Of a stretch of 64,000 nt of DNA, positions 26,758-43,850 are shown piece by piece. This DNA comes from Gemmobacter lutimaris (GTDB taxonomy: Bacteria > Pseudomonadota > Alphaproteobacteria > Rhodobacterales > Rhodobacteraceae), in NCBI RefSeq assembly GCF_003570715.1, contig NZ_QXXQ01000003.1:124001-188000 (forward strand), written 5' to 3'. Under the pieces are notes generated by a model, which was not told the origin of the DNA, made no database searches, and saw only the letters and a list, made by a program, of their open reading frames with translations. The first letter of the stretch is position 1; every line of letters starts with the position of its first letter. The position numbers and the translations under genes are program-made.

Positions 26758-26878
26758 CCGGCAGCACGACAATCATGGGTGGCGCATCTGCGCCGCCCTC
26801 GCGTGTCAGGCGATGGATTGAGATCTATTGCCCCGTCCCGCTGCATTGTTACCAAGTCGTCACCTGACTTTGGCGTGG

Positions 26879-26930: not shown

Positions 26931-27752
26931 ATGCTGCAAGTCCGCAATGTATCGCGCGTGTTCGGCCAGAAGGCCGCGGTAGATAATATCAGCTTTGATA
27001 TCGACCGCCCTGCATTCGTGGGAATCATCGGCCGTTCCGGTGCGGGCAAATCGACCTTCCTGCGCATGATGAACCGTCTGACCGACGCCAGCACCGGACA
27101 GATCATGGTTGAAGGCCGCGATATCCTTGCGCTGAAAGGCGCTGCCGCCCGCGCATGGCAAAGCAATTGCGCGATGATCTTCCAGCAGTTCAACCTTGTG
27201 CCACGCATGGATGTGGCCTCGAATGTGCTGCACGGCATTCTGAACCGCCGGTCCACGCTTCAGACGCTGTTCAATCTCTGGCCCCGTGCCGACATCCTGA
27301 AGGCGCTGGAAATCCTTGACCGGCTGGGCATCGCCGAGCAGGCGCCAAAGCGGGCCGAGGCGCTTTCGGGCGGTCAGCAGCAGCGCGTCGCCATCGCGCG
27401 GGCGCTGATGCAGGACCCCCGCATCATCCTTGCCGACGAACCCATTGCCAGCCTCGACCCGATGAATGCGCAGATTGTGATGGACACGCTGAAGCGCATC
27501 AATGTCGAGGATGGCCGCATGGTCATCGCCAACCTGCACACGCTGGATACTGCGCGGCGCTATTGCGACCGGGTGATCGGCATGCGGGACGGTCGCATCG
27601 TCTTTGACGGCACGCCCGAACAGCTTTCGACCGGCGTTGCGCGCGACATCTACGGCGCCGACGACAGCTTCAACGAAGCCGCGACCTCCACCTCCATCCC
27701 CGCCGATACCGCGCCCGACCGGGCCTGGGCCGAGCGGATGCTGGCCAACTGA
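26931..27752 (+). CDS. phnC: Phosphonate ABC transporter ATP-binding protein
   Basis: Cytoplasmic ATPase of the phosphonate importer, 273 residues. Walker [10 protein letters not shown], signature LSGGQQQR and Walker [13 protein letters not shown] are all present, with the PhnC-type feature that helix [13 protein letters not shown] follows the Q-loop. First gene of the rightward phnC-D-E-E operon; a Pho-box-like site is upstream. A GC-rich purine stretch GGAAGGGGCGGGG precedes the ATG as ribosome site. Confidence 0.95.
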
Positions 27753-27802
27753 CCCCGTTTCACCCGCCCCGCAGGATGCAGGGCAGAACCCGGAGCACCC
27801 CG

Positions 27803-28699
27803 ATGAAAAACCTCCTCCTCGCCCTTGCCGCGACCACCGCGCTGACCGGCGCTGCCAGCGCCGAAGGCATCACCCAGTTCAATGTCGGCATCCTTGGCGG
27901 CGAAAACGCCCAGGATCGCATGACCTCGAACGAATGCTACCGCGCGAAGATCGAAGAGGCGCTGGGCGTGCCGGTCAAGGTCTTTACCCCGGCCGATTAT
28001 GACGGCGTGATCCAGGGCCTTCTGGGCGGCTCGCTGGACCTCGCGTGGCTGGGCGCCTCGGGCTATGCCAAGATCTACCTGACCGACCCGGAAGCGGTGG
28101 AGCCTGTTCTGACCAAGCAGAACATGGACGGCTCGACCGGCTACTACTCGATCGGTTTCGCCCGCAAGGACTCGGGGATCACCTCGATCGAGGATGCCAA
28201 GGGCAAGGTCTTTGCCTTCGGTGAACCGAATTCGACCTCGGGCTATCTGGTGCCGGGTGCAGAGCTGCAAGAGAAGTATGGCAAGCTGGAAGATTACTTC
28301 GGTGAAGTGAAATTCTCGGGCGGCCACGAGCAAACCATCGTCGGCGTTGCCAAGGGCGATTTCGCGGCTGGCGTGAGCTGGGCTGACGGTCTGGGCAACT
28401 GGGAAGACGGCTACAATTCCGGCGCCTTCCGCAAGGCTGCCGATGCGGGCCTCGTCGACATGAATGACCTCGTGGAAATCTGGAAGTCGAAGCTGATCCC
28501 CGAAGGGCCGATGGTGGTGCGCAAGGCGCTGCCGCAGGACGTCAAGGACAAGGTGATCGCGCTGACCGCCGATCTTCATGAAACCGACAAGGATTGCGCC
28601 TATGGCGTGGCTGCGGGCGAAGCCAAGGACTTCGTTCCGGTTACCCATGACGAGTATCTGGGCATCGTTGCGGCCCGGAAGCTGCAAGAAGGCATGTGA
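27803..28699 (+). CDS. phnD: Phosphonate ABC transporter substrate-binding protein
   Basis: Periplasmic binding protein of 298 residues that captures phosphonates for the PhnCE importer. The signal peptide MKNLLLALAATTALTGAASA ends near residue 20. Family motifs include TPADYDGVIQGLLGGSLDLAWLGAS (residues about 59-83) and FAFGEPNSTSGYLVPG, whose Ser/Thr residues bind the phosphonate group. It is followed by a strong hairpin before phnE. Confidence 0.95.
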   Translation: MKNLLLALAATTALTGAASAEGITQFNVGILGGENAQDRMTSNECYRAKIEEALGVPVKVFTPADYDGVIQGLLGGSLDLAWLGASGYAKIYLTDPEAVEPVLTKQNMDGSTGYYSIGFARKDSGITSIEDAKGKVFAFGEPNSTSGYLVPGAELQEKYGKLEDYFGEVKFSGGHEQTIVGVAKGDFAAGVSWADGLGNWEDGYNSGAFRKAADAGLVDMNDLVEIWKSKLIPEGPMVVRKALPQDVKDKVIALTADLHETDKDCAYGVAAGEAKDFVPVTHDEYLGIVAARKLQEGM

Positions 28700-28715
28700 G
28701 TTTTTCTGACGTGTC

Positions 28716-28741
28716 GCCGGGTTCCCTGAAGGGAGCCCGGC
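28716..28741 (+). terminator. Hairpin between phnD and phnE
   Basis: An 11-bp stem (GCCGGGTTCCC/GGGAGCCCGGC, one wobble pair, loop TGAA) is followed by AATTTCTTTT. It probably causes partial termination or protects the 3' end, giving more binding protein than permease, as in other binding-protein operons. Confidence 0.55.
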
Positions 28742-28775
28742 AATTTCTTTTCCGGCCCCGCAACAGGACTGCACA

Positions 28776-29654
28776 ATGGTAGATATCGCCTTCGGCCCGC
28801 AGGGCGACAAAGGCCCCGGCCCCACGAACGGGCGCGACGCCTATCTTGATTTGGTGCGTCGCCGCCGCATGTATGGCGGGATTCTGCTGGTGCTGTTCGT
28901 GGCGCTGATGGCCTCGGGTTTCCGTCTCGCCGAAAGCCGCAATGCGGGCGGGTTCATCGACGGGTTGCCGCAGGTCTTTGCCTTTCCTTCGGAAGTGATT
29001 TCCGAAGCCTGGGCAAAACGGGCCGAGGTGCCGGGCCTGATCTGGGCGCATGTGCCCTCGCTGATCGAGACGATCAACATCGCGGCGGTGTCCACACTTG
29101 CGGGCGGGCTGGCCGCCATGGTGCTGGCCTTGCTGTCCACGCGGGGGCTGTCGCGCTGGCCGCGCCTCACCGGCGTGTTCCGCCGCATGATGGATGCCTT
29201 TCGCGCCGTGCCCGAAATCGTCATCGCGCTTGTGCTGATCTACCTCTTGGGCGGTGGCCCGGTTCCGGCAGTCATCGCCATCGCCCTGCATACCTCGGGG
29301 GCTCTGGGGAAGCTGTTTTCCGAAGTGGCCGAAAATGCCGATCTGAAGCCGGTCGAGGGGCTGACCTCGGTGGGTGCCACATGGGGACAGAAGATGTGGC
29401 TGGGCATCATCCCGCAGGTGGCGCCGAACTGGATCAGCTATGCGCTGCTGCGGTTTGAAATCAATGTGCGCGCCTCGGCCATCCTTGGCTTCGTGGGCGA
29501 GGGCGGCATCGGCCACGATCTGAAACTGGCGATGCAATGGGGGCAGGGGCGCTATGACGAGGTGGTGGCGATCTTCCTGCTTTTGTTCCTGACCATCGTG
29601 GCCATCGACCGCCTGTCGGACCGCGCGCGTGAAAAACTGGTGAGGGGGCGCTGA
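28776..29654 (+). CDS. phnE: Phosphonate ABC transporter permease (first PhnE)
   Basis: Inner-membrane permease, 292 residues. A hydrophobic span near residues 32-52 is followed by a periplasmic stretch and the five-span BPD_transp_1 domain. The EAA-like cytoplasmic loop is EVAENADLKPVEGLTSVGAT, where it contacts the PhnC ATPase. Downstream of phnD after a hairpin and 2 nt before the second permease, with which it likely forms a heterodimer. Confidence 0.93.
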   Translation: MVDIAFGPQGDKGPGPTNGRDAYLDLVRRRRMYGGILLVLFVALMASGFRLAESRNAGGFIDGLPQVFAFPSEVISEAWAKRAEVPGLIWAHVPSLIETINIAAVSTLAGGLAAMVLALLSTRGLSRWPRLTGVFRRMMDAFRAVPEIVIALVLIYLLGGGPVPAVIAIALHTSGALGKLFSEVAENADLKPVEGLTSVGATWGQKMWLGIIPQVAPNWISYALLRFEINVRASAILGFVGEGGIGHDLKLAMQWGQGRYDEVVAIFLLLFLTIVAIDRLSDRAREKLVRGR

Positions 29655-29656
29655 AC

Positions 29657-30988
29657 ATGGCCGTGACCGAATTTCCCGATGGACGCGCCGTGCTGACCGA
29701 AACGGTCACCCGCAACTTCACCCGGCACAGCCGCATGGCGCTGGCGGTGCCTGCGGTGATCTGCGCCTATTTCGTCTATATCTTCTTTGCCTTCGACATT
29801 GCGGGCATCGCCGCGCGCCTCCGGCCCGACAATGCGGTCATTCTTCTGTCGGATTTCTGGTCTTACAAGACCCATGTGACCCGCGACAACCGCAGCGGCA
29901 GGCTCAGCGTCGCCATCGAGGGCGAGGCGAAAGGCGCTTATCCCGAAGGCCAGTTGCCCGATTGGGTGACGCAGGCGGGCGACACCACGGTCATCGACCT
30001 CGGCGGCGGCAATATCGTCACCTATGACGCGGCCGGTGCGCGCTATGTGGTGCCGGGCTACGGCACCATCGACATCGCGCCCGAAGACGGCAAGCTGCGC
30101 CTGACCACGCCTGAACCGCTGCCAGACTGGATCAACGCCTCTGACAACCGGGTCAGCGTCACCACCGATGCCGGGCGCTTCGCCTATACCCGGTCGAAGG
30201 TTGAAACCTTCCGCTATCAGCCGGGGTGGGAACTGTTCTTCTTCACACTCGACAGCCCCTTCGCGGGCAAGGGCGTGGGCGAACTGGCCGCGCTGGCGCT
30301 GTGGGGCGAACGGGTTGATCCCGCGCGCGGTAATCTGGGCTATATGCTGTCCGAGTTCTGGAACAACCGCATGTGGCGCCATGGCGACGTCGCCTGGGCG
30401 ATGTTTGAAACCGTGCTGATGGCCTTCCTTGGCACCATGGGGGCGGCGGTGATCGCCCTGCCGCTGGGCTTTCTGGCCGCGCGCAACTTCATGCCGCTGG
30501 GGCCGCTGCGCTTTGCCATGCGCCGGGTGTTCGATTTCATCCGCGGCGTGGACGGGCTGATCTGGACCATCATCCTCAGCCGCGCCTTCGGCCCCGGCCC
30601 GATGACCGGCGCGCTGGCCATCCTGCTGACCGACACCGGCAGTTTCGGCAAGATGTTCTCCGAAGCGCTGGAAAACATCGACGAGAAACAGGTGGAGGGC
30701 ATCCGCTCCACTGGCGCCAGCGCCGTGCAGCGCGCGCGGTTCGGGGTGATCCCGCAGGTGACGCCGGTGCTGGTGAGCCAGGTGCTTTACTATCTCGAAT
30801 CCAACACCCGCAGCGCTACAGTGATCGGCGCCATCGTCGGCGGCGGCATCGGCCTGTTGCTGACGCAGGCCATCATCACCCAGAAAGACTGGGAAGAGGT
30901 CGCCTACTACATGGTGCTCATCGTGCTGATGGTCATGGCGATGGACAGCCTGTCGGGCTGGCTGCGCAAGAAGCTGATCAAGGGATAA
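29657..30988 (+). CDS. phnE: Phosphonate ABC transporter permease (second PhnE, long form)
   Basis: Second permease of 443 residues. After a first span (residues 26-48) comes a periplasmic insertion of roughly 190 residues (about 60-235), rich in beta-strand sequence such as GRLSVAIEGEAKGAYPEGQ and VVPGYGTIDIAPEDGKLRLT. The BPD_transp_1 core follows, with loop EALENIDEKQVEGIRSTGAS. The insertion is absent from the 292-residue partner. Sequence resembles the family's second PhnE; the inserted domain's role is unknown. Confidence 0.9.
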   Translation: MAVTEFPDGRAVLTETVTRNFTRHSRMALAVPAVICAYFVYIFFAFDIAGIAARLRPDNAVILLSDFWSYKTHVTRDNRSGRLSVAIEGEAKGAYPEGQLPDWVTQAGDTTVIDLGGGNIVTYDAAGARYVVPGYGTIDIAPEDGKLRLTTPEPLPDWINASDNRVSVTTDAGRFAYTRSKVETFRYQPGWELFFFTLDSPFAGKGVGELAALALWGERVDPARGNLGYMLSEFWNNRMWRHGDVAWAMFETVLMAFLGTMGAAVIALPLGFLAARNFMPLGPLRFAMRRVFDFIRGVDGLIWTIILSRAFGPGPMTGALAILLTDTGSFGKMFSEALENIDEKQVEGIRSTGASAVQRARFGVIPQVTPVLVSQVLYYLESNTRSATVIGAIVGGGIGLLLTQAIITQKDWEEVAYYMVLIVLMVMAMDSLSGWLRKKLIKG

Positions 30989-30992
30989 ACCC

Positions 30993-31610
30993 GTGCCGAA
31001 ACTTTCCGCGACCGAAGCCTTCGTCCATCCGGGCTGCCAGATCGTAAATTCCACCTTCGGCGCCTATTGCGAGGTGGGTGAGGGCAGCCGGGTGCTGAAC
31101 TCCGACTTCGGGGATTATGCCTATTGCGACCGCATGGCTGACATTGCCAATACGACCGTCGGCAAATTCGCCAACATCGCCGCGATGACGCGGATCGGGC
31201 CGACGGATCACCCGTTCACCCATGCCGCGCAGCATCATTTCCTGTATCGCTCCTCTTACTATTGGGAGGATGCCGTGGATGATCCGGCCTTCTTTGCCGC
31301 CCGCGCGGCCCGGCGCAGCACACTGGGGCCGGATTGCTGGGTCGGCCATGGCGCGATCATCAAACCCGAGGTGACCATCGGCGCCGGGGCCATCGTCGCC
31401 TCGGGGGCCGTGGTCACGCGCGATGTGGCGCCCTTCATGATCGTGGCAGGCTGCCCCGCCGTGCCGCTGCGCGCCCGCTTCACACCACAGGTCACGGACC
31501 GCCTGCTGGCGCTGGGCTGGTGGGATTGGGATCACGCGACGCTGCGTCAGGCGCTGCCCGATTTCCGCAGCCTGCCGGCCGAGGCTTTCCTTGAGAAATA
31601 CGGTGGCTAA
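30993..31610 (+). CDS. Hexapeptide acetyltransferase, phosphonate-linked family
   Basis: Left-handed beta-helix transferase of 205 residues, of the phosphonate-operon hexapeptide family. Repeats run through NSTFGAYCEVGEGSRVLNS, then TVGKFANIAAMTRIG, and VTIGAGAIVASGAVVTRDVA; catalytic-type His residues lie in GPTDHPFTHAAQHHF. It probably acetylates an aminoalkylphosphonate or aminosugar, by analogy to chloramphenicol-type acetyltransferases. It begins with GTG 4 nt after the long PhnE and overlaps the converging glycosyltransferase by 4 nt. Confidence 0.8.
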   Translation: MPKLSATEAFVHPGCQIVNSTFGAYCEVGEGSRVLNSDFGDYAYCDRMADIANTTVGKFANIAAMTRIGPTDHPFTHAAQHHFLYRSSYYWEDAVDDPAFFAARAARRSTLGPDCWVGHGAIIKPEVTIGAGAIVASGAVVTRDVAPFMIVAGCPAVPLRARFTPQVTDRLLALGWWDWDHATLRQALPDFRSLPAEAFLEKYGG

Positions 31611-32284
31611 CGCACCTGTCGCGTCAGGCGGACAATCTGGTTCAGCACGGTCATCGGGCCGGTGGCGCGCAGAATATCGACGATCATCAGCCCATCCGAC
31701 GCCATACCCCGCCAGAAGCCACGCTTGACGGATTTGGCGGGGCTGGCAACACCGGGCCAACGCACGACTGCGGGGCGCAGGCCGTGATTCAGCATCAGCC
31801 GGTTCAGGAAGACCTCGAAACCGAATTTCGGCAGGCTGTCCAGCGCGGTCAGATGCGGGGCGATCAGGGTGCGCGGCAGCATGCGTTCGCCCGAGATGTA
31901 ATCCACCCCCAGCCAGCGCCAGAGCCGTGGCGCATTGCCGCGCAGGGACAGGCTGACATCGGCCCGACCTTCCAGCACGGGCCAGACAAGTTGGGTGACA
32001 TCCGCCGCCGTCAGCCCGGTCAGATCCGCGTCGATCAGCAACAACCAGTCGCCGTCGCTGGCGGCGATACCCTGCGCCAGCGCCCGTGTCTTGCCCCGGT
32101 TCGGCACAAGGCGCAGCACCTCTGCCCCGGCTTTTCGTGCAACCTCTGCCGTGCCATCCTGCGAGCCGTCGTCTATGACCAGAACCCGGTCGATCATGGA
32201 ATGCCCGACCAGCACGCCCAGAACGGCGCCGATCCGCGTTGCCTCGTCATGGGCGGGAACCAGACAGGTGATCTTGCCCCTCAT
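31607..32284 (-). CDS. Glycosyltransferase family 2
   Basis: Cytoplasmic-face GT-A fold glycosyltransferase, 225 residues. The nucleotide-sugar motifs are VIDDGSQDGT (residues 36-45) and LLLIDADLTGL (DxD-like), preceded by LVPAHDEATRI at the N-terminus. No membrane span is obvious. The acceptor is unknown; placement in a gene set with a GT21 enzyme, a DedA protein and a PlcP-like phosphoesterase suggests a lipid or polyprenyl acceptor. Its start overlaps the DedA stop by 4 nt. Confidence 0.8.
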   Translation of the reverse strand: MRGKITCLVPAHDEATRIGAVLGVLVGHSMIDRVLVIDDGSQDGTAEVARKAGAEVLRLVPNRGKTRALAQGIAASDGDWLLLIDADLTGLTAADVTQLVWPVLEGRADVSLSLRGNAPRLWRWLGVDYISGERMLPRTLIAPHLTALDSLPKFGFEVFLNRLMLNHGLRPAVVRWPGVASPAKSVKRGFWRGMASDGLMIVDILRATGPMTVLNQIVRLTRQVR

Positions 32285-32856
32285 CGGCCGACCTTTCGTT
32301 TATGTACGAACCACAATGTCCCGGCCAGCGCGGCAAGTGCGGTGAGCACCAGTGCGCCGTGAAAGATCCAGTCGTCGATCCGCTGCCAGGCCGAGCCGAA
32401 CACCCAGCCCAGCCCGACGAACAGCAGGCTTTTCGGGATCGAGGCCAGCAGGTTGACCAGCAGGAATTTCCCGAAATCCATTCGGGCGATGCCTGCCGCC
32501 GTCAGCACGGCCGCACCTGCCGAATGGGTCAGCTTCCCCACCACTAGCAGCCGCGTGCCCTGCGCCCGGAACGCCCGCACCAGCCGGGCAAGGCGCGGTC
32601 GGGTCAGTCCGATGCGGTCCAGCCAGCGTTGTGGCACCAGACGGCGCCCGTGCCGTCCCAGCGCGTAGAACAGCGCGTCGCCGGCCACATCGGCAAGGAT
32701 GACGCAGATGACCACCGCTGGCAGATCCATCAGCCCCAGCCGCGCCAGATAGGCCGCGATGACGGTGACCACCGGCCCTTCGATCAGGGCAAGCGGCGCG
32801 AGGATCAGCAGGCCGTGGCTCTGGATCAGGGCCACCAGATCGGGTTCAGGCATCAT
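32281..32856 (-). CDS. DedA family (SNARE-associated/VTT-domain) membrane protein
   Basis: Inner-membrane protein of 191 residues, of the DedA family of lipid-handling proteins (undecaprenyl phosphate or phospholipid scramblases). Features: GLLILAPLALIEGPVVTVIA re-entrant helix, GRRLVPQRWLDR, and VVGKLTHSAGAAVLTAAG with the family's conserved Gly/Arg pattern. Two adjacent ATGs at 32856 and 32853 are possible starts. Sits between the two glycosyltransferase genes, 10 nt after the GT21 stop. Confidence 0.82.
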   Translation of the reverse strand: MMPEPDLVALIQSHGLLILAPLALIEGPVVTVIAAYLARLGLMDLPAVVICVILADVAGDALFYALGRHGRRLVPQRWLDRIGLTRPRLARLVRAFRAQGTRLLVVGKLTHSAGAAVLTAAGIARMDFGKFLLVNLLASIPKSLLFVGLGWVFGSAWQRIDDWIFHGALVLTALAALAGTLWFVHKRKVGR

Positions 32857-32866
32857 TGTGGCCGGA

Positions 32867-34003
32867 TTACTCCGCCGGGTGCAGCGTCGGGGCAGCAGCG
32901 GCATCACCCATGGTATTGCCGCGCCAGTCAAAGCCGCGCCGCAGGAAGGTAGTGGCCCAGATTGCCGGGATCATCAGGTCGCGCAAAGGGAGCACGGCGA
33001 TGTCCTGCCAGCCCGAGGGCCAGCCCGCCCGCCGCATCAGCCGTGCTTCGGCAGCATACCAGAGACCCAGGTAGCCCAGAACCAGTGCAGGCGAGAGACC
33101 TGCGCCTGCCAGTGCGCCAAGGCAGACGAGGCCGGGCAGCACGGAACCATTCGCCGGCTCCGCCCCGAAAAGCTGGGGAAACCCGTCGCGGCGGATGCGG
33201 CTCCAGCGTAGTTGACGGTTCCATACCTGCGAAAGGCGTCGCCGTCCCACCGGCTGTGCGAAGGGCAGGGGAGTCAGCCGCACCCTGAGGCCGATGTCGC
33301 GCATCAGATGGGTCGCCGCCGCATCCTCGGCCAGTTCGCGGCCCAGAACGGCCAAGCCTCCGAAGCGTTCGATCAGCGGTTTGTTGAAGAACAGCGTCTT
33401 GCCTTGCGCATAGCCCTTGCCAAGGCTGTCGGCGGCGAATTGCAGTCGCGCCTGATTGCCGTTCAGGAAGGCGCATTCCAGCCGTCCGGCAAGGCCCTGC
33501 GGGCGGATGCCCACGGCGGGCGAGGACACCAGCCCTGTCGCCGGCCCCCAGCTTGCCACCACGCGCGACAGATAATCGGGCGGCAGCAGCAGGTTCGCAT
33601 CTGTCATGCAAACCCATTCCGCAGTGTCAGAATACCAGCCCTTCCAGACATTGTTGATCTTCGGGTTGCGCGTCACCCGTGCCTCGCCCACCAGCAGACG
33701 GGCCGACACCTGCGGATGTTCCGCGATCAGGTGGCGGATCAGCGGCAGCACCGGATCGTCGGGCGATGCGGCGCAGAAGATCACGTCATATTCCGGGTAA
33801 TCCTGCGTGAAGGAGGTGCGCAGCGTTTCGGCATCGAACGGGTCCAGCCCACAGACCGGACGCAGCAGGGTCACGCGCGGCGTGCCGATCAGTCCGGGCG
33901 CGGCGGGCCGGTCGGTCTCCAGCCTGCGGAGGAACAGCACCACCGAGGCATAATGCACCGCCAGAAATCCGGTGGCGACAAGGGCAAGCAGTAGGGCGAT
34001 CAT
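32867..34003 (-). CDS. GT21 glycosyltransferase (ceramide/diacylglycerol glucosyltransferase-like)
   Basis: Membrane-anchored processive-type glycosyltransferase of 378 residues. All family-21 elements are present: N-terminal span (IALLLALVATGFLAVHYASV), FCAASPDDP, the second Asp in MTDANLLLPP, the third in ELAEDAAATHLM and the NRQLRW acceptor motif, then C-terminal membrane spans. Alphaproteobacterial members add glucose or glucuronate to diacylglycerol under phosphate starvation. Adjacent PlcP-like gene starts one base earlier in the shared TGATG junction. Lipid use is inferred. Confidence 0.85.
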   Translation of the reverse strand: MIALLLALVATGFLAVHYASVVLFLRRLETDRPAAPGLIGTPRVTLLRPVCGLDPFDAETLRTSFTQDYPEYDVIFCAASPDDPVLPLIRHLIAEHPQVSARLLVGEARVTRNPKINNVWKGWYSDTAEWVCMTDANLLLPPDYLSRVVASWGPATGLVSSPAVGIRPQGLAGRLECAFLNGNQARLQFAADSLGKGYAQGKTLFFNKPLIERFGGLAVLGRELAEDAAATHLMRDIGLRVRLTPLPFAQPVGRRRLSQVWNRQLRWSRIRRDGFPQLFGAEPANGSVLPGLVCLGALAGAGLSPALVLGYLGLWYAAEARLMRRAGWPSGWQDIAVLPLRDLMIPAIWATTFLRRGFDWRGNTMGDAAAAPTLHPAE

Positions 34004-34815: not shown

Positions 34816-34872
34816 GGCAAGGCTCCGTCACGGGGTCGTGAGCGGACCATGGGCACAGAAGGCCACGATTTG

Positions 34873-34890
34873 ATGACGTTTCGCTTGCAG
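34873..34890 (-). promoter_or_regulatory. Weak Pho-box-like site upstream of the PlcP-like gene
   Basis: On the minus strand CTGCAAG, four bases, ACGTCAT matches the double CTGTCAT pattern at 9 of 14 positions, inside the 112-nt gap between phnM and the PlcP-like gene. Weak alone; it gains weight from the lipid-remodelling genes it precedes. Confidence 0.25.
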
Positions 34891-34927
34891 TTTCACGACG
34901 ATTGCGGCGCTGCGGCGAAAACCCGGC

Positions 34928-36070: not shown

Positions 36071-36124
36071 TTCGGAAAGTCCTGTCTTGCGGTTCCGGGC
36101 GCAGGCGGCTGCAATGGCACGAAA

Positions 36125-36144
36125 CCGTCACGCCTTTGTGACAG
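36125..36144. promoter_or_regulatory. Dyad with Pho-box-like half-sites between phnM and DUF1045
   Basis: GTCAC and GTGAC (36127-36142) form an inverted repeat in the 95-nt divergent gap. In the plus direction CCGTCAC, four bases, TTGTGAC matches the double CTGTCAT motif at 9 of 14; on the minus strand CTGTCAC is a 6 of 7 half-site. It could serve both promoters. Confidence 0.35.
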
Positions 36145-36165
36145 TCGCAGGCTAGGCCACCCGAC

Positions 36166-36855: not shown

Positions 36856-37361
36856 AGCGCCGCCAGAAACCGCGCGACGCCCTCGGACAGCGTGCCGTCG
36901 TTGCGCACCTCGATGGCCTTGATGCCCTCGGGCAGGGTAAATGCCGCGCGGGCCAGCCGGGCGCGGATATCGGCCTCTGGCTCGCGTCCCCGCGCGGCCA
37001 GGCGCTGCGCCAGAACCGCATCCGGCGCGGTGACAAGGATCACCCGCAGTCCGGGAAACCGCGCCTGCGCCTGCGGCAGGGCCATGCGCGAGCCGTTGAA
37101 GATCACCACGCCCGGTGCGGCGAGCTGCGCTTGCGGGATGCCATAGTTCAGCCCATGCGCCTGCCAGTCCAGCGCGAAGTCACCGGCGGCCTTGCGCGCG
37201 GCGAAGTCCTCGGGGCTGACCCCTTCGAAATCCTCGCCTCCGGCCTCGGTCGGGCGGGTGATCACCCGCTGCACCAGCCGCAGATCGGGCCGCGCCGCCA
37301 CTGCACCGGCGATCAGCGTATCCTTCCCGGCCCCGGAAGGTCCGACTACCGCGACCAGCAC
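36837..37361 (-). CDS. phnN: Ribose 1,5-bisphosphokinase
   Basis: Phosphotransferase of 174 residues converting ribose 1,5-bisphosphate to PRPP, recycling the ribose freed by phosphonate breakdown. P-loop VGPSGAGKDT (residues 6-15) at the N-terminus and lid/core residues such as VITRPTEAGGEDFEG, QAHGLNYGIP are guanylate-kinase-like. Stop overlaps the converging DUF1045 gene; start lies 1 nt after the phnL stop, in the same transcript as phnG-L. Confidence 0.93.
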   Translation of the reverse strand: MLVAVVGPSGAGKDTLIAGAVAARPDLRLVQRVITRPTEAGGEDFEGVSPEDFAARKAAGDFALDWQAHGLNYGIPQAQLAAPGVVIFNGSRMALPQAQARFPGLRVILVTAPDAVLAQRLAARGREPEADIRARLARAAFTLPEGIKAIEVRNDGTLSEGVARFLAALQPVRA

Positions 37362-37362
37362 G

Positions 37363-38046
37363 TCAGGCCGCCAGACGCGGGGTGAAGCCGGTCACATCGA
37401 CCAGCCGGTCGCAAACGCGATCCCGCGCCGCCTCGTCATGGAAGATCCCCACGATGGCCGCCCCGCGCGCCTTGGCCTCTTCGATCAGCCCCAGAACCAC
37501 CTCGCGGTTGGCGGCATCCAGACTGGCCGTCGGCTCGTCCAGCAACAGCGCCGGATAGGGATGTGCGAAGCCGCGCGCGATGTTCACCCGCTGCTGCTCG
37601 CCGCCCGAAAAGGTGGTGGGCGACAGGCCCCAAAGCCGCTCGGCAATGTTCAGCCGCGCCAGCAGATCCGCCGCCCGCGCCCGCGCCGCATCGACCGGCA
37701 CGCCCAGTTGCAGCAGCGGCTCCGCCACCACATCCAGTGTCGGCACGCGCGGCACCACGCGCAGGAACTGACTGACATAGCCCAGAACCTCGCGCCGCAG
37801 CCGGATGATCTCGCGCGGGGCGGCGCGGGCGACATCCAGATCGCCGACCCGGATGCTGCCGCCGGCGGCCAGATAGTTGCCGTAGATCATCCGCATCAAG
37901 GTGGATTTCCCCGACCCCGACCGCCCGGTCAGCCCGACGCACTCGCCAGGCGTGACGGAAAGCGCCGCCCCCGCCATCACCGGGATCACGGCGCTGCCCT
38001 GATTGTGCAGGGTAAAGACCTTGGAAAGATTGGTAATCTCGATCAT
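37363..38046 (-). CDS. phnL: C-P lyase subunit PhnL (ABC-type ATPase)
   Basis: ATPase-like subunit of 227 residues in the C-P lyase assembly, needed for phosphonate activation along with PhnG-H-I. Walker [18 protein letters not shown], signature [15 protein letters not shown] and Walker [12 protein letters not shown] are intact. ATG at 38046 lies within the ATGA overlap with the upstream corA stop, so it is translationally coupled to corA. The start chosen gives [17 protein letters not shown], typical of the family. Confidence 0.93.
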
Positions 38047-39002
38047 AGCCAGCGTTTCCACTTGAAGAAAAGATAGGTCAGCACCGCCGAGGCCAGCATC
38101 AGTGCCAGCGCCATCGGATAGCCGAATGCCCATTGCAGTTCCGGCATATGGGCGAAGTTCATCCCATAGGCCGAGGCGATCACTGTGGGCGGCAGGAAGA
38201 TCACCGCCACCACCGAAACGATCTTCACCGTTTTGTTCTGGGCAAGGTTCACCATGCCCAAAGTCACGTCCGAGGCCATGGCGACCCGGCTGGTGAGGAA
38301 GTCGCCATGGACCTCCAGCGCCCGGATGTCGCGCATCAGCCCCTTCACCACCGGACGCAAGCCATGGCCCGCCCCGGCCTCGTCCAGTGCCTGCCCGAAG
38401 TAACTGATGGCGCGTTCCAGCGTCAGCAGCGACTGCCGCACCCGGCTGATCAGGTCACTTTCACGGGCGACCTGACGCAGTGCCTCTTGCAGCGCGTCGT
38501 CGCTCGCCTTGGCGCCTTCCTCGAACACCCGCGCCATCAGCGTGTCCAACCCCCGCCCGGTGCCCTCCATCAGATCGGCCAGCCGCCCGACGATTTCCTC
38601 CATCAGCGACAGGAACACCCTGCGCGGATCGCCGCAGCCTGGACCGACGCGGTCCGCGCGTTCGGGATAGGTTTCGAACGGTCGCGGCGCATGGTGGCGC
38701 ACAGTCACCAGCCGTTCGGGGTGAAGGATGAAACAGACCGGGCCGGACATCGGCGCCTTGGTCTCGCTCAATCCCGGCAGCACCACAGTCAGATAATCGA
38801 CGCTGCCCTCACGATAGAGACGGTTCGAAACCTCAATCTCTTCCATATCGGCCAGCGTCGGCACTTCGACGCCCAAGGCCTGCGCCTGATCCACCTGACC
38901 GGACAGCGGGCGGTACAGATCCACCCAGATGGCCGCAGCCAGATCGCTGCCCTGCGGCAGCGGCTTCAGTTTCCGGTCGGCGGGGGCATAGGCGTAAAGC
39001 AT
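38043..39002 (-). CDS. corA: CorA-family divalent cation channel
   Basis: Membrane channel of 319 residues with the long cytoplasmic N-terminal domain and two C-terminal spans typical of CorA/ZntB. The pore motif YGMNF (in [13 protein letters not shown]) near residue 279 precedes the second span, and the last residues (FKWKRWL) are basic. It sits inside the C-P lyase operon, 3 nt from phnK and overlapping phnL by ATGA. A role in Mg2+ or Fe/Zn supply for C-P lyase is only a guess from this placement. Confidence 0.9.
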
Positions 39003-39005
39003 GGG

Positions 39006-39803
39006 TCAGACCTGAAGGACAGAGGATACCAGCAATTGCGTATACCCGTGCTGCGGGTCGTCCAACACCTGATCGGTCAGCCCCTGTTCCACCACCCGGC
39101 CCGATTTCATCACCATCAGCCGGTCGGCGAGCAGACGCACCACCGCAAGGTCATGGGTGACGATCACGACCGACAGCCCCAGATCGCGCACCAGTCCGCG
39201 CAAAAGATCCAGCAAGCGCGCCTGCACGCTGACATCCAGACCGCCGGTCGGCTCGTCCATGAACACCAGCCGCGGCCCGGTCACCAGATTGCGCGCGATC
39301 TGCAAACGCTGCTGCATGCCGCCGGAAAAGGCGGAAGGGCGGTCGTCGATCCGGTCGGCGGCAATCTCCACCCGGCCCAGCCAGTCAGTCGCGGTGTCGC
39401 GGATGGCGGCATAGTTCCGCGCACCCACCGCCATCAGCCGCTCGCCGACATTGCCGCCGGCACTGACCCCCATGCGCAACCCGTCGCGCGCATTCTGATG
39501 CACGAAGGCCCATTCGGTGCGGCTCAGCCGCCGCCGCTCCGGTTCCCCCAGCGCACCCATGTCGCGGCCATCGTAAAGGATGCGCCCCGCATCCGGCTTC
39601 AGATGCCCGGCCAGACAGCCCAGCAGCGTGGATTTGCCCGAACCGCTTTCGCCCACGATCCCCAGAACCTCACCGGGAAACAGATCGAACGTCACATCGG
39701 TACAGCCGATCCGGCTGCCATAAAGCTTCATCACGCCCTGAACCGACAAAAGCGGCCGGTCCTCTTTGACCTTGGCACAAGTATCCATATCCACCGCCCC
39801 CAT
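39006..39803 (-). CDS. phnK: C-P lyase subunit PhnK (ABC-type ATPase)
   Basis: ABC-type subunit of the C-P lyase complex. Walker [18 protein letters not shown], signature AFSGGMQQRLQIARN, and Walker B LVFMDEPTGGLD are visible. I start at the ATG at 39803 (MGAVDMDT...) as AAGGGGA precedes it; an earlier in-frame start at 39863 would include 20 residues coded by an AT-rich palindrome, with ATGA overlap to phnJ. PhnJ lies upstream; the corA gene follows 3 nt after the stop. Length (265 aa) is normal. Confidence 0.92.
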   Translation of the reverse strand: MGAVDMDTCAKVKEDRPLLSVQGVMKLYGSRIGCTDVTFDLFPGEVLGIVGESGSGKSTLLGCLAGHLKPDAGRILYDGRDMGALGEPERRRLSRTEWAFVHQNARDGLRMGVSAGGNVGERLMAVGARNYAAIRDTATDWLGRVEIAADRIDDRPSAFSGGMQQRLQIARNLVTGPRLVFMDEPTGGLDVSVQARLLDLLRGLVRDLGLSVVIVTHDLAVVRLLADRLMVMKSGRVVEQGLTDQVLDDPQHGYTQLLVSSVLQV

Positions 39804-39829
39804 CGCGCGATCCCCTTGGGCAGGAGCGC

Positions 39830-39851
39830 CAAAATTCTTCAAAGAATTTTG
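39830..39851. repeat. AT-rich perfect palindrome between phnJ and phnK
   Basis: CAAAATTCTT and its exact complement AAGAATTTTG flank a 2-nt centre, in otherwise GC-rich sequence. It sits in the 56-nt phnJ-phnK gap. If phnK starts at 39863 the palindrome is translated; if at 39803 it is untranslated. It could be a small repeated element or an RNA processing hairpin. Confidence 0.45.
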
Positions 39852-39859
39852 TCCCCCGG

Positions 39860-40729
39860 TCATTCTGCCGCTCCCGGCTGGCCCAGCCGTCCGACATGTC
39901 CTGCCGCGCGGCGTCCCGCACAGAAATCGGTGTCGGAACAGACATACATCCGGCTGCCCCGGTCATCGGTGATGACCTCGTCCAGATAGCTGTCACCGGC
40001 GCCGCAGAGGTCGCAGTCATGCGGCGCTTTCGATGCCTCGAACGGGTGATCCTCGAAATCGAGGCTGATAACCTGTGTATAGGGCGGCAGGGCATAGATG
40101 CGCTGCTCGCGGCCTGCACCGAAGAGCTGGATCGCCGGATTGTCCGACAGTTTCGGATTGTCAAATTTCGGGATCGGCGAGGGGTCCATCACATAGCGCC
40201 CCTCCACCTTCACCGGATAGGCATAGGCTGTAGCAATGGTGCCGTGACGGGCGATGTCCTCGTAGAGCTTCACATGCATGAGCCCGTATTCCTCCAGCTC
40301 GTGCATCTTGCGTGTCTCGGTCTCGCGCGGTTCCAGAAAGCGCAGGGGTTCCGGGATGGGCACCTGATAGACGAGGATCTGGCCCTCGCAGAGCGGGGTT
40401 TCAGGGATGCGGTGGCGGGTCTGGATCACGGTGGCCTCGGCGGTCGCCTCGGTCACCGCCACCCCTGCCGTGCGCTGAAAAAACTTGCGGATCGACACGG
40501 CGTTGGTGGTGTCGTCGGCGCCCTGATCGATGACCTTCAGCCGGTCGTCAGGCGTCAGACAGGCCGCGGTCACCTGCACCCCGCCGGTGCCCCAGCCATA
40601 GGGCATCGGCATTTCGCGGCTGGCGAAGGGCACCTGATAGCCCGGCACCGCGATCCCTTTCAGGATCGCGCGGCGGATCATCCTCTTGGTCTGTTCGTCC
40701 AGATAGGCGAAGTTGTAAGCATCAGACAT
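39860..40729 (-). CDS. phnJ: Alpha-D-ribose 1-methylphosphonate 5-phosphate C-P lyase
   Basis: Radical SAM-type enzyme that breaks the carbon-phosphorus bond, 289 residues. The family's unusual cysteine pattern CX2CX21CX5C is exact: Cys239, Cys242, Cys264 and Cys270 (CDLCGAGDSYL ... YVCSDTDFC). N-terminal MSDAYNFAYLDEQTKRMIRR supports the start at 40729. Together with phnGHI and phnK it forms the C-P lyase core. A 198-nt gap with a plus-strand small ORF separates it from phnI, so phnJ may need a promoter or read-through there. Confidence 0.97.
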   Translation of the reverse strand: MSDAYNFAYLDEQTKRMIRRAILKGIAVPGYQVPFASREMPMPYGWGTGGVQVTAACLTPDDRLKVIDQGADDTTNAVSIRKFFQRTAGVAVTEATAEATVIQTRHRIPETPLCEGQILVYQVPIPEPLRFLEPRETETRKMHELEEYGLMHVKLYEDIARHGTIATAYAYPVKVEGRYVMDPSPIPKFDNPKLSDNPAIQLFGAGREQRIYALPPYTQVISLDFEDHPFEASKAPHDCDLCGAGDSYLDEVITDDRGSRMYVCSDTDFCAGRRAAGHVGRLGQPGAAE

Positions 40730-40757
40730 GGCAGGACCACATGAAGGGAAGCAGGAA

Positions 40758-40925
40758 ATGGAGGCATGGATTTTCGCCATCGTGATCGGTGTAATCGTAG
40801 GAGGCGTCTATATCCGGCAGAACAAGCTTCCGCTGGCCGGGCTGCCACGAAACCATACCTCTGATGGGGGATCTGACGACGGGGATGGCGGTGGAGATGG
40901 CGGCGGCGACGGGGGTGGGGACTGA
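40758..40925 (+). CDS. Small membrane protein with Gly/Asp repeat tail (antisense orientation)
   Basis: A 55-residue frame reads opposite to the operon and fills the phnI-phnJ gap. It has a hydrophobic segment at residues 3-18 (AWIFAIVIGVIVGGVY), a short linker, and then an acidic tail of GGGD repeats (GDGGGDGGGDGGGD). A purine-rich AAGCAGGAA precedes ATG 40758. Alternatively the frame starts at 40728, inside the complement of the phnJ start. Similar small proteins with Gly/Asp tails seem common in this family of bacteria; no function is known. Confidence 0.4.
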   Translation: MEAWIFAIVIGVIVGGVYIRQNKLPLAGLPRNHTSDGGSDDGDGGGDGGGDGGGD

Positions 40926-40927
40926 TC

Positions 40928-42010
40928 TCATTCCGCCGCCTCCTGTATCTGCATCGCCTCGGCCCGCAGGCGGCGCACCAGTTCCAGTTCGGACTGGAAA
41001 TCGACGTAATGCGGCAACTTGATATGCTCCAGAAATCCGGTGGCCTGGATGTTGTCGCAATGGCTCAGCACGAATTCCTCGTCCTGCGCCGGGGCGCCGG
41101 TGAAATCCTCGCCCAACTCCTGCCAGCGCAGCGCGCGATCCACGAGGCTCATGGCGATGGCCTTGCGCTCGGTCTGGCCGAAGGTCAGGCCATAGCCACG
41201 GGTGAATTGCGGCGGTTCGGTTTTCGAGCCCTTGAACTGGTTGACGGTTTCACATTCCGTCAGTTCGACCTCGCCGATCTCGATGGCGAAGCCCAGCTCG
41301 GGAATGTCCATTTCCACCGGCACGCGGCCAATGCGCAGTTCGCCGACGAAGGCATGGGTGCGGCCGTAGCCGCGCTGGGTGGAATAGGCCAGCGACAGGA
41401 TGAATCCCTCATCCCCCCGCGTGATGGCTTGCAGCCGCAGCGGGCGGTTCGCGGGCAGTTCCAGCGGTTCGCGTGTCAGGTCAGGCGGCGGCGTCTCCTC
41501 GCGCGGGGCGGCTTCGATCAGCCCGTCGCGGTCCAGAAGGCCGGTGACATGCGGCACCGTCTCAGGGCTGGCGGGCGCCAGTGGCGCGACCGGCAGCTCG
41601 CCCTCGGCCGCCAGTTTGAAATCCAGCAGGCGGTGCGTGTAATCGAAGGTCGGCCCCAGCACCTGCCCGCCGGGCAGATCCTTGAAGGTGGCGCTGACGC
41701 GGCGGTCCACCGCCATCGCGGCCGTTTCCACCGGCTGCGAGGCGCCAAGGCGTGGCAGTGTGGTGCGATAGGCGCGGATGAGGAAGATCGCCTCAATCAG
41801 ATCGCCGCGCGCCTGCTTGATCGCCAGCGCCGCCAGATCGGGGTCATACAGCGATCCTTCGGCCATCACCCGGTTCACCGCCAGCTTCAACTGCTCGCGG
41901 ATCTGCGGCAGGGTCAGTTCAGTGACCGATGGATCGCCGCGCCGTTCTTCGGCCAGCCAGGCATGGGCGTTGTCGATGGCGCGTTCGCCACCCTTGACGG
42001 CGACATACAT
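40928..42010 (-). CDS. phnI: C-P lyase subunit PhnI
   Basis: Alpha-D-ribose 1-methylphosphonate 5-triphosphate synthase nucleosidase subunit, 360 residues; swaps the adenine of ATP for the phosphonate with PhnGHL. N-terminus MYVAVKGGERAIDNAHAWLA and the segment ATFKDLPGGQVLGPTFDYTH match the family. TGATG with phnH means one shared base; translation is coupled to phnH. Confidence 0.95.
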   Translation of the reverse strand: MYVAVKGGERAIDNAHAWLAEERRGDPSVTELTLPQIREQLKLAVNRVMAEGSLYDPDLAALAIKQARGDLIEAIFLIRAYRTTLPRLGASQPVETAAMAVDRRVSATFKDLPGGQVLGPTFDYTHRLLDFKLAAEGELPVAPLAPASPETVPHVTGLLDRDGLIEAAPREETPPPDLTREPLELPANRPLRLQAITRGDEGFILSLAYSTQRGYGRTHAFVGELRIGRVPVEMDIPELGFAIEIGEVELTECETVNQFKGSKTEPPQFTRGYGLTFGQTERKAIAMSLVDRALRWQELGEDFTGAPAQDEEFVLSHCDNIQATGFLEHIKLPHYVDFQSELELVRRLRAEAMQIQEAAE

Positions 42011-42579
42011 CAGGCTTCCTCCACGATGGTGGATCGGGGCAGGGCGGCGAGCATGTCGCCGCTGGTGAAGTAGCAATCGAACCCCAGCGGAAAGAGCGCG
42101 CGATTGGCGCGGAATGCCGCGATCTCGGGCAGCGACAGTTGCGCCGTGTCACGGATGCCGGGGCCACGGAGCGTTACGCCGGTCGCGGAAAGCGTGGGCA
42201 GTTCCACGATCAGCGTGGCGGAACGGTCCGGGTAATCTGGCTGGCCGATGCGGAAGCGGGTCAAAGGATGCAGCGCGGCCCAGTCGCCCACCGCGAAATC
42301 TGCCTGATCCGCCGGGGCGAAGGGGGCGCCGGTATGGAAGGTGATCCAGTCGCGCACCGCCGGGCAATCGACCGTCCCGGCCAGATGCACCGGCGTCGTT
42401 GTATCGGCAAGCGTCAGCAAGAGCGCCCCGGCAGCGGGCGACAGCGGCGCGGGCGGGGTAGCGCCAGTCAGGCGATGCAGGGTGCCGGGGCGGGCCATCG
42501 CCTCCAGCGCGGCGCGGAAGGCATGGGCGGCCTCGGTCGCGGGCGCGGCGAACCCGCCGGTCAGGGCTTCGGGCGTCAT
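42010..42579 (-). CDS. phnH: C-P lyase subunit PhnH
   Basis: Structural C-P lyase subunit of 189 residues, PLP-transferase-like fold without the cofactor. N-terminal MTPEALTGGFAAPATEAAHAF and FRAALEAMARPGTLHRL, and later FTSGDMLAALPRST, fit PhnH. Starts inside the end of phnG (ATGA), ends one base into phnI. The strong overlap of the phnG-H-I chain favours fixed stoichiometry. Confidence 0.93.
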   Translation of the reverse strand: MTPEALTGGFAAPATEAAHAFRAALEAMARPGTLHRLTGATPPAPLSPAAGALLLTLADTTTPVHLAGTVDCPAVRDWITFHTGAPFAPADQADFAVGDWAALHPLTRFRIGQPDYPDRSATLIVELPTLSATGVTLRGPGIRDTAQLSLPEIAAFRANRALFPLGFDCYFTSGDMLAALPRSTIVEEA

Positions 42580-43022
42580 TGATCCTCTCCGCGGACCATG
42601 GTGAAGAATTCGACCTTTGTTGCAGCCGCCTTGGCGGCGCGGGTCGTGCGGGTGGTCTCTGCCTCTAGCCGCAGGGGATGCAGCACCTGCGCCTCGATCC
42701 GCGCGGCCTCGGGCGTTTGCATCAGCGCATCCACAACGGCGGCGCGGCGGGCGTGATCCTTGTCGCGGCCCTGCACATAGGCATGGCCCACAGCGCCGCA
42801 TGCCAGCCGCAGCGAGCAGCGAGTCACCGTCATCTCGCCCAGATTGAACGGGGCGCCGGTGCCGCCGACGCGACCCCGCACCATGACGGAACCCACTTCG
42901 GCCGGGCGCAGCAGCGCGGTTTCAGGCAGGTCGGGCAGCAGGGCGGCAAGCCGCGCGGGTGGCGCCTTGGCCAGAAGGGACATCCAGCCCTTCCGCGCCA
43001 GATCTTCCGGGCGTTCGGTCAT
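42576..43022 (-). CDS. phnG: C-P lyase subunit PhnG
   Basis: First gene of the leftward C-P lyase operon; 148 residues. Family sequence at the N-terminus (RKGWMSLLAKAPPARLAALLP) and MTVTRCSLRLACGAVGHAYVQGRDKDHARRAAVVDAL (residues about 65-101). Needed with PhnH, PhnI and PhnL for nucleophilic attack of phosphonate on ATP. The perfect palindrome at 43046-43073, 24 nt upstream of the ATG, is the likely PhnF operator. Confidence 0.93.
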   Translation of the reverse strand: MTERPEDLARKGWMSLLAKAPPARLAALLPDLPETALLRPAEVGSVMVRGRVGGTGAPFNLGEMTVTRCSLRLACGAVGHAYVQGRDKDHARRAAVVDALMQTPEAARIEAQVLHPLRLEAETTRTTRAAKAAATKVEFFTMVRGEDQ

Positions 43023-43045
43023 CTGATCCTCGACAGGTTGCGGAT

Positions 43046-43073
43046 TTGTCTAGTTTACTATACAACTAGACAA
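43046..43073. promoter_or_regulatory. PhnF operator: perfect inverted repeat between phnF and phnG
   Basis: Arms TTGTCTAGTT and AACTAGACAA are exact complements around an 8-nt AT-rich spacer (TACTATAC). It occupies the intergenic space 24 nt upstream of phnG and 67 nt upstream of phnF, where a GntR/HutC repressor controlling both promoters would bind. Half-sites GTCTA/TAGAC resemble known HutC-type sites. Confidence 0.8.
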
Positions 43074-43113
43074 GTGATAGCCGATGACCTGAGTCGGCAC
43101 AACGCCCGATGGC

Positions 43114-43131
43114 ATGAAACTTTTGCGACAG
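43114..43131 (-). promoter_or_regulatory. Pho-box-like site upstream of phnG
   Basis: On the minus strand CTGTCGC, four A, GTTTCAT matches the double CTGTCAT box at 10 of 14 positions with the exact 4-nt spacer. It lies upstream of the PhnF operator for the phnG promoter; activator upstream, repressor near the start is plausible. Confidence 0.35.
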
Positions 43132-43139
43132 GAGATTCC

Positions 43140-43850
43140 GTGGCCCGCAGCCCGATCTGGAAATCCATTGCCGACACGCTGGCCGCCGAGATTGCCGAGG
43201 GCTTGTATCGACCCGGCGACAAGCTGCCGTCAGAGGCGGATCTGGCCAGCCGTTTCGGCGTGAACCGCCATACGGTGCGGCATGCGCTGGCGGTGTTGGC
43301 AGAGGCGGGAACCCTGCATGCCCGGCGTGGGGCCGGGGTTTTCGTCACCGCGCGGCCCACCGATTACCCGTTGGGGCGTCGCGTGCGCTTTCACCAGAAC
43401 GTCGCCGCCTCGGGGCGCGCACCGTCGCGCCGGCTGACCCGGCTGGAGACCCGCCCCGCCAGCGCAGAGGAGGCCGAGGCGCTGACACTGGCCCCCGGCG
43501 CCCCGGTGCATGTGATGGAAGGCGTGTCGCTTGCCGACGGGCAGCCGCTGGCAGCGTTCCGGTCGGTCTTTCCTGCGGAACCTTTGCCCGGTCTGCTGGC
43601 TCTGCTGGAGGAATACCAGTCGGTCACTGCTGCCCTGACCGCGCTGGGCGTCGCCGATTACACGCGCGCCGAAACCCGGCTGACGGCGAAGCGCGCCGGG
43701 GCGGTGCTGGCGCTGGCCCTGCAAGTGCAGGAGGGCGCGCCGATCCTGCGTTCGGTGGCGGTGAATGTGGATGCGGCAGGGCGGCCGCTGGAATACGGCA
43801 CCACTTGGTTCGCCGGGGACCGGGTGACGCTGACTGTCACGCCGGATTGA
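43140..43850 (+). CDS. phnF: GntR/HutC-family transcriptional regulator PhnF
   Basis: DNA-binding repressor of 236 residues. N-terminal winged-helix (residues 5-70: GDKLPSEADLASRFGVNRHT), then a UTRA effector domain with RLETRPASAEEAEALTLAPG. The GTG start at 43140 is chosen because ACAGGAG stands at 5-6 nt; further upstream in-frame sequence would carry the operator. Divergent from phnG, it probably represses the operon until a phosphonate is available. Convergent with rlmH, 2 nt between stops. Confidence 0.9.
   Translation: MARSPIWKSIADTLAAEIAEGLYRPGDKLPSEADLASRFGVNRHTVRHALAVLAEAGTLHARRGAGVFVTARPTDYPLGRRVRFHQNVAASGRAPSRRLTRLETRPASAEEAEALTLAPGAPVHVMEGVSLADGQPLAAFRSVFPAEPLPGLLALLEEYQSVTAALTALGVADYTRAETRLTAKRAGAVLALALQVQEGAPILRSVAVNVDAAGRPLEYGTTWFAGDRVTLTVTPD

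Follow-up and report, generated by a model that had tools for sequence, protein, structure and literature searches.

A four-gene plcP–GT21–dedA–GT2 unit, a probable lipid-remodelling cassette, inside the phosphonate locus of Gemmobacter lutimaris

RESULTS

The four genes and their setting

We analysed a 64-kb stretch of the Gemmobacter lutimaris genome (contig NZ_QXXQ01000003.1, positions 124,001 to 188,000; hereafter the window, part of a 4.66-Mb genome in 76 contigs), in which a carbon–phosphorus (C-P) lyase locus encloses four genes that probably form a cassette for lipid remodelling. In order of transcription, on the minus strand, these encode a PlcP-like metallophosphoesterase (34003–34815; PF00149, 42.5 bits against a cut-off of 21.5), a GT21 glycosyltransferase (32867–34003; PF13506, 150.3 against 21.7), a divergent DedA/VTT membrane protein (32281–32856; PF09335, 51.3 against 33.9) and a second glycosyltransferase, GT2 by Pfam (31607–32284; PF00535, 61.8 against 23.3). 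Alignment with relatives indicates that the DedA start is most likely 32856 rather than 32931. The genes share one strand and are separated by −1, +10 and −4 bases, and this quartet is therefore operon-like. It belongs to a leftward block that continues with phnM to phnG (31607–43022), and faces a rightward block of phnC, phnD, two phnE genes and a TIGR03308 gene (26931–31610). The original prediction, made from the sequence alone, had the phnCDEE importer and the phnG–L/N/M core in opposed orientation around the four genes, and family models confirmed this arrangement at the coordinates given. The four named genes are present; five are enclosed, the fifth being a phosphonate-associated hexapeptide transferase (30993–31610, plus strand; TIGR03308, 290 bits against 202).

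Order and co-occurrence of the quartet genes

A search for plcP in 394 genomes of the Rhodobacteraceae family, nearly one per genus, gave matches at 68 places in 67 genomes. Stretches (mostly 20 kb) around 54 of these places were compared with six from nearer relatives and with the window, making 61 loci; 13 of the 68 places, each with at most 36% identity, lie outside this comparison. A quartet-type GT21 gene adjoins plcP in 38 of the 61 loci, and in 36 of these 38 the order plcP–GT21–dedA–GT2 is complete on one strand, usually with overlaps of a few bases. The exceptions are a quartet without dedA (L035, genome G080) and a locus that reaches a contig end (L031, G307), with the GT2 gene and the remainder of dedA on another contig (L199); the units of G307 and G425 are each split across two contigs. 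At 22 of the 61 loci plcP has no GT21 match at 1e-5. Three of these plcP genes are of the quartet type, two in stretches that stop at a contig end (L033, L050) and one alone (L039). A plcP–GT21 pair (L056) was kept out of the 38.

With at most seven candidates scored per genome, GT2 matches were sharply split: 34 of the 394 genomes had matches at E ≤ 2.1e-57, and the next best was 7.7e-14. Quartet-type plcP was present in 33 of the 34 (Fisher p = 1.5e-44, uncorrected for relatedness), and the two genes occurred together in 33 of the 36 genomes holding either. The two genomes with quartet-type plcP but no GT2 (G248 and G368) are represented by assemblies 78% and 74% complete. Pairwise protein distances of the four members correlate across 36 loci (r 0.28–0.73; 0–2 of 999 permutations reached r). 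Of the other families encoded within 6 kb of the 36 quartets, only ABC-type ATPases, which form a broad paralogous group, were seen in more than four loci (up to 12); the unit is thus sharply bounded. This flank comparison, which by longest frame may keep false genes, was repeated with every frame of at least 90 residues; L057, a near copy of the window, was left out. In a class-wide draw of 337 genomes, the GT2 profile reached E ≤ 1e-25 in three: G000 itself and two in which the match was partial (residues 2–121). A contig scan with this profile matched at least 80 loci on a general motif, and none of those listed bears a Rhodobacteraceae title. The gene order and the co-occurrence of plcP and GT2 thus bear out the original proposal that the four genes belong together, and DedA and GT2, put forward as possible new members, are regular members of the unit in the compared loci.

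The four proteins

In the PlcP-like protein, residues D21, H23, D51, N90, H91, H126, H210 and H212 are invariant among 24 quartet proteins, which thus carry the motifs of a calcineurin-like metal site. The protein is the sole match in the source genome. It is 37.7% identical over 244 amino acids (140 bits) to a Sinorhizobium meliloti protein whose gene lies near an acyl-homoserine lactone synthase gene, and which, to judge from its neighbours, is presumably the characterised PlcP. It falls far under the LpxH models (29.8 against 134 bits and 25.6 against 190 bits) and is thus closer, by score, to the S. meliloti homologue than to LpxH. With LpxI in the genome, lipid A synthesis does not depend on this LpxH-like protein; on these two grounds an LpxH role for the first gene was rejected. 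The BtaA family model had no match in the source genome. The PlcP-like protein is predicted to convert phospholipid to diacylglycerol (DAG).

One genome (G203) contains GT21, dedA and GT2 but no plcP match. Directly before its GT21 gene lies a 706-residue frame with VTT, PAP2 and LssY_C domains (L197:5608–7728), whose stop codon is immediately followed by the GT21 frame. Phosphatidic acid phosphatases are among the PAP2 proteins. With one slot filled by either of two unrelated phosphatases, DAG, the substrate that a GT21 lipid glycosyltransferase needs, is a plausible shared product. The exchange points to DAG as the intermediate, as support rather than proof, since undecaprenyl pyrophosphate has also been proposed as the substrate of PAP2 domains joined to DedA (PMC10127716).

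The GT21 type is characterised by D1, D2 and D3 and a (Q/R)xxRW motif, and D83, D135, D227 and R263-Q264-x-R266-W267 are invariant in 24 homologues of the quartet GT21, itself the only match in the source genome. It would put the first sugar on DAG; this acceptor is suggested, indirectly, by the two kinds of phosphatase able to form DAG that precede GT21. An HpnI-type role in hopanoid synthesis was rejected, as the score was 184.5 bits against a cut-off of 310 and a search of the genome with the hopene cyclase model TIGR01507 gave no match. Neither quartet transferase matched a GT4 Pfam model at E ≤ 0.001 in a search for Agt-type enzymes confined to the quartet.

A KxTHxxG motif is present in 36 of 37 quartet DedA proteins. 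The window's DedA scored 58.9 bits against the cut-off of 250 for the UptA-type undecaprenyl-phosphate flippase model. Its K108 and G114 occupy the positions of two arginines, six residues apart, in a Burkholderia VTT protein (L080), which we take to correspond to Arg130 and Arg136 of YghB on the second re-entrant helix. DedA thus lacks the arginine pair of UptA on this helix; the alignment of the first re-entrant helix is ambiguous. DedA may translocate a lipid.

The predicted fold of the GT2 protein is closest to GpgS, a retaining α-glucosyltransferase (GT81), in a second look at Foldseek ranks in which the absence of other families is uninformative. It scored 60.7 bits against the GpgS equivalog cut-off of 262; its acceptor must differ from that of GpgS. 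GT2 may add the second sugar. VTT and GT2 genes also lie close together, with plcP absent, in Burkholderia sp. L27 (L080:8370–10663), where a 24% GT21-like match follows at a distance of about 3 kb, and in a gammaproteobacterial metagenome-assembled genome (L092:7918–10678), where they lie beside a diacylglycerol-kinase-type gene.

Pho-box-like sites

The textbook Pho box consensus, used as a first probe, gave a weak signal. The pstS model TIGR00975 matched in 8 of 61 genomes, one above cut-off, and was unusable as a source of promoters in this family. The matrix that replaced the consensus was built from the phnG promoters of 20 quartet-bearing genomes, 15 of which supplied a site; these were the best textbook matches, chosen by eye as fitting a common form, roughly CTGTCAT-GAAA-NTTTCAC. 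Sites of at least 8 bits were found before plcP in 20 of the 38 quartets, as against 5 of 112 control regions before GT21, dedA or GT2 (Mann–Whitney U test, p = 4e-13). Before non-quartet plcP genes such sites occurred at 10 of 22 loci. None of 40 column-shuffled matrices reached 20 quartet plcP sites, the highest giving 9.

In the window, all ten sites of at least 9 bits fall between 26.6 and 43.9 kb, where 200 shuffled matrices averaged 1.7 sites and never exceeded 6. Six are in gaps before phnC, plcP, phnM/DUF1045 and phnG/phnF, and four are within genes. The gap sites are at 26846–26863 before phnC (plus strand, 16.0 bits); at 34862–34879, 64–47 bases before plcP (minus strand, a modest 9.9 bits); at 36114–36144 between the DUF1045 gene and phnM, as a divergent, overlapping pair (14.5 bits plus, 13.3 bits minus); and at 43109–43131 between phnF and phnG (12.8 bits plus, 20.4 bits minus). 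An inverted repeat with 10-base arms, read in the sequence before phnG (43046–43073), is perhaps the PhnF operator. The sites suggest that the quartet may be controlled by PhoB.

Relation to phosphonate genes and mobility of the quartet

The original prediction implied that the quartet is conserved together with phn genes. This was mostly not so. Phn core or importer genes were present within the fetched stretch at 5 of 38 quartet loci (the window, G001, G009, G276 and G125), and a general tie of the quartet to phn is ruled out by their absence from the other 33; matches to phnC, phnK and phnL below 38% identity were omitted from the neighbour lists, these ABC ATPases being too alike. Two further quartets have only other phn-associated genes beside them: DUF1045 in G010, and a TIGR03308-like transferase (41%) with two PhnM-like amidohydrolases (33–35%) in G309. 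The quartet follows phnM in the window, G001 and G009, and precedes phnC in the same direction in G276 and G125 (about 0.2 and 4.3 kb away); G125 gave no match in the phnJ search. In a FastTree tree of plcP, GT21 and GT2, the clade that unites the window with G276 (local support 0.999) contains neither G009 nor G125, and G276 falls outside the window's subclade (0.994). The joins to phn are therefore in separate tree positions.

Although the quartet follows phnM in both the window and G009, the quartet proteins of these two are only about 50% identical, as against 80–90% for phnM, I, J, K and L and 61–70% for phnG, H, N and DUF1045. Quartets from other genera are more similar to that of the window (about 59%). 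The slot after phnM thus seems to have been filled or refilled twice, fast divergence being an alternative. Quartets within the same genus form at least four groups, about 50–55% identical to one another, and plasmids carry the quartet in Gemmobacter fulvus (p2), Fuscovulum blasticum (pRsa) and, without dedA, Pannonibacter phragmitetus. The divergent same-genus groups, the plasmid locations and the slot apparently filled twice make the quartet look mobile: probably a cassette that moves whole, by horizontal transfer.

Among the 35 genomes with quartet-type plcP, 26 have phnJ, compared with 177 of 359 others (Fisher p = 0.007, generous since the genomes are related). The quartet of G026 is preceded, at a distance of about 2.2 kb and in the same orientation, by a pst-phoU-phoB cluster (L018:1202–7466); pstB, phoU and phoB score over their cut-offs, pstS below, and pstC and pstA are assigned by position. 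The other PlcP type has phn genes nearby in G159 and G206, with a second copy in G206 near pst-phoB. A functional but not obligatory link between phn and quartet would be that phosphate is gained from phosphonates while phospholipid demand is cut. The claim that phosphonate scavenging and lipid remodelling are joined at this locus therefore stands as far as the join is real, arises in separate tree positions and is accompanied by Pho-box-like sites at both the quartet and the phn operons; it is a minor part of the picture, and the larger result is the cassette itself, with its DedA and GT2 members.

Other genes of the window

The C-P lyase set, phnGHIJKLMN with phnCDE, is complete. The following plus-strand genes score above their NCBIfam cut-offs: phnC (26931–27752; TIGR02315, 317 bits), phnD (27803–28699; TIGR03431, 315 bits) and two phnE genes (28776–29654 and 29657–30988; TIGR01097, 236 bits each). 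So do phnM (34928–36070; TIGR02318, 419 against 391 bits), phnN (36837–37361; TIGR02322, 176 against 156), phnL (37363–38046; TIGR02324, 312), phnK (39006–39863, start approximate; TIGR02323, 373), phnH (42010–42579; TIGR03292, 156) and phnG (42576–43022; TIGR03293, 168) on the minus strand. PhnJ (39860–40780, minus; PF06007, 479 bits) and PhnI (40928–42010, minus; PF05861, 549 bits) were identified through Pfam, no NCBIfam family being assigned to them. Opposite to the leftward block run the TIGR03223/DUF1045 phn-operon gene (36166–36855, plus; 178.5 bits with Pfam and 236.7 with NCBIfam, slightly below the cut-off of 248.95) and phnF (43140–43850, plus; TIGR02325, 222 bits, above cut-off), with a GTG start inferred from a preceding AGGAG.

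A CorA-family transporter gene stands between phnL and phnK within the C-P lyase core (38043–39002, minus; PF01544, 135.6 bits); neither it nor the DUF1045 gene was named in the original prediction. It is also found in the close relative G001 (L057) and is absent from G009 (L061); in G159 (L063) a CorA-family gene (39%) adjoins DUF1045 and phnM, and the pairing of CorA with phn genes may recur. The phn locus is bordered by a gene for an RTX-type calcium-binding repeat protein (24144–26036, minus), and genes annotated as calcium-binding lie near the quartets of G. fulvus p2 (L159) and F. blasticum pRsa (L160). A DUF3800 gene (47914–48702, plus) lies between leuC-like and leuD-like frames, in a stretch of lower G+C (0.55).

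DISCUSSION

A PlcP-led cassette for glycolipid synthesis

We consider it likely that the quartet is a self-contained, probably horizontally moving, PhoB-controlled cassette which converts phospholipid via DAG to glycosyl-DAG and diglycosyl-DAG, placed here inside a C-P lyase locus. When phosphate is short, PlcP would cut the phosphate head group from phospholipids, leaving DAG; DAG would receive one hexose from GT21 and a second from the other glycosyltransferase, which is GT2 by Pfam and GpgS-like in fold; and DedA would carry either DAG or the completed glycolipid through the inner membrane. The analysis itself shows the unit, its order and borders, the co-occurrence of its genes, the promoter sites, the alternative phosphatase in one genome and the predicted GT2 fold. 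From them we infer PhoB control, all substrates and products, and transport.

Several observations weigh against the scheme. Co-occurrence alone is no proof of a shared pathway. Quartet-type plcP can stand alone (L039; G248), and L056 (G343) has at 9585–11537 just a plcP–GT21 pair, with a GT21 that is 37% identical and no dedA or GT2 match, possibly a simpler form of the system. The absence of dedA from two lineages, G080 and the Pannonibacter plasmid, means that dedA is not essential. Relatives of GT2 at 42–44% identity occur outside the family with no plcP nearby (L079, L080). As to regulation, the matrix rests on sites picked by eye, the textbook consensus performed poorly (at least 11 of 14 positions matched in 6 of 38 loci, compared with 1 of 38 and 1 of 37 controls), and the window's own plcP site is among the weakest of the ten. 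Shuffled upstream regions reached 8 bits in 198 of 1900 cases, so that the evidence lies in the set of Pho-box-like sites and little in any single one.

A more specific form of the proposal can be put forward tentatively. The quartet would be the gene set for the α-Glc(1→4)-β-Gal-DAG type of glycolipid of phosphate-starved Rhodobacter-type bacteria: an inverting GT21 would make β-Gal-DAG, a new family of retaining, GpgS-like lipid α-glucosyltransferases would add the glucose, and a new DedA subfamily without the phosphate-gripping arginine pair would act as scramblase for a phosphorus-free lipid, the cassette travelling whole and repeatedly settling beside phosphate genes.

The second sugar may have another origin. 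Like Pgt of Mesorhizobium loti, GT21 could be a processive enzyme that forms di- and triglycosyl-DAG by itself, leaving GT2 to add a further sugar or serve another acceptor. Pgt enzymes are GT21 members described as producing these lipids (PMC3972451, PMC8231724), and the pair in L056 shows that plcP and GT21 can occur without GT2; however, the unit includes GT2 at 36 of 38 loci, and all examined Rhodobacteraceae loci with a strong GT2 match have GT21, counting the split units of G307 and G425. We regard this explanation as rather improbable. It is unlikely, too, that GT2 loads a sugar onto undecaprenyl phosphate and DedA recycles or flips that carrier, so that DAG production would stand beside a polyprenyl-linked sugar pathway.

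The RefSeq product name in annotated carriers (UDP-2,3-diacylglucosamine diphosphatase) and the LpxH structures, which are the nearest solved relatives by sequence (E 2.8e-14), would suggest that plcP encodes a lipid A enzyme of the LpxH type and that the quartet is a route to modified lipid A or a surface glycan. Against it stand the LpxH model scores, the presence of LpxI, the PAP2 protein able to occupy the plcP slot and the Pho-box-like sites before plcP, and we hold it to be very improbable. A different alternative concerns the locus: the joining itself may be the adaptation, phosphonate scavenging and phospholipid sparing having been selected into one place. In favour are the five phn-linked quartets in separate tree positions, a naive chance of 0.015 for at least 2 of 26 quartets lying within 15 kb of phnJ, the phn-associated genes beside the quartets of G309 and G010, the other-type PlcP near phn genes in G159 and G206, and the greater frequency of phnJ in quartet genomes. 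With 33 of 38 quartets lacking phn core or importer genes in the fetched stretch, this too appears unlikely. Moreover, the neighbour of one quartet is pst-phoUB instead, and phosphate genes in general may be what attracts the unit.

Comparison with known systems

Lipid remodelling under phosphate shortage shapes the phosphorus need of bacteria. If the proposed cassette is correct, it would join plcP-agt and plcP-btaBA as another route that starts with PlcP, in many Rhodobacteraceae genera (34 of 394 genomes), would suggest a DedA cargo without phosphate, and would be a pathway now hidden by RefSeq names (LpxH-type diphosphatase, ceramide glucosyltransferase). The four-gene cassette, or a DedA or second transferase tied to plcP, was not found in the literature searched, which was mostly open access. 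One reported pgt holder, Pelagibaca bermudensis, presumably belongs to the Rhodobacteraceae. It is named in PMC4796936, whose gene-context section has plcP of 'types 3 and 5' preceding putative glycosyltransferases; a second transferase of this kind is absent from that section, the paper's text never uses the term DedA, and the first half of the cassette may already be drawn in its 2016 figure. PlcP beside a pgt-type GT21 is thus published, and the four-gene cassette with DedA and a second transferase is apparently new.

The plcP-agt operon is established in SAR11, Erythrobacter and Methylosinus (PMC4796936, PMC8231724, PMC9239053). As proposed for the quartet, PlcP-made DAG is there passed in phosphate shortage to a glycosyltransferase encoded by a neighbouring gene; Agt, however, is a GT4 enzyme that makes one-sugar lipids, whereas the quartet has GT21, a second transferase and DedA. 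The original prediction had treated PlcP with GT21 as a known pair. This holds for Pgt, which is processive, but the best-characterised partner is Agt (PMC8231724, PMC3972451). The Pgt systems of M. loti and Agrobacterium are similar in setting PlcP beside a GT21-type transferase that forms multi-sugar DAG lipids, and differ in that Pgt is processive. In Phaeobacter sp. MED193, plcP-btaBA is reported to yield a betaine lipid (PMC4796936); this is likewise PlcP-dependent lipid replacement, in the Roseobacter clade, with a product for which the source genome has no BtaA family match.

GpgS (GT81) is related to the second transferase in predicted fold and differs in family, the quartet protein lying far below its cut-off. 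The closest parallel in product is the glucosylgalactosyl-DAG made by phosphate-starved Rhodobacter sphaeroides (Benning 1995, as cited in PMC3972451): the bacteria are related, the trigger is phosphate starvation, and the lipid carries two different sugars. Its outer glucose is α-linked, which fits a GpgS-like second transferase, and the quartet would, if our proposal is correct, be a candidate gene set for this glycolipid described in 1995.

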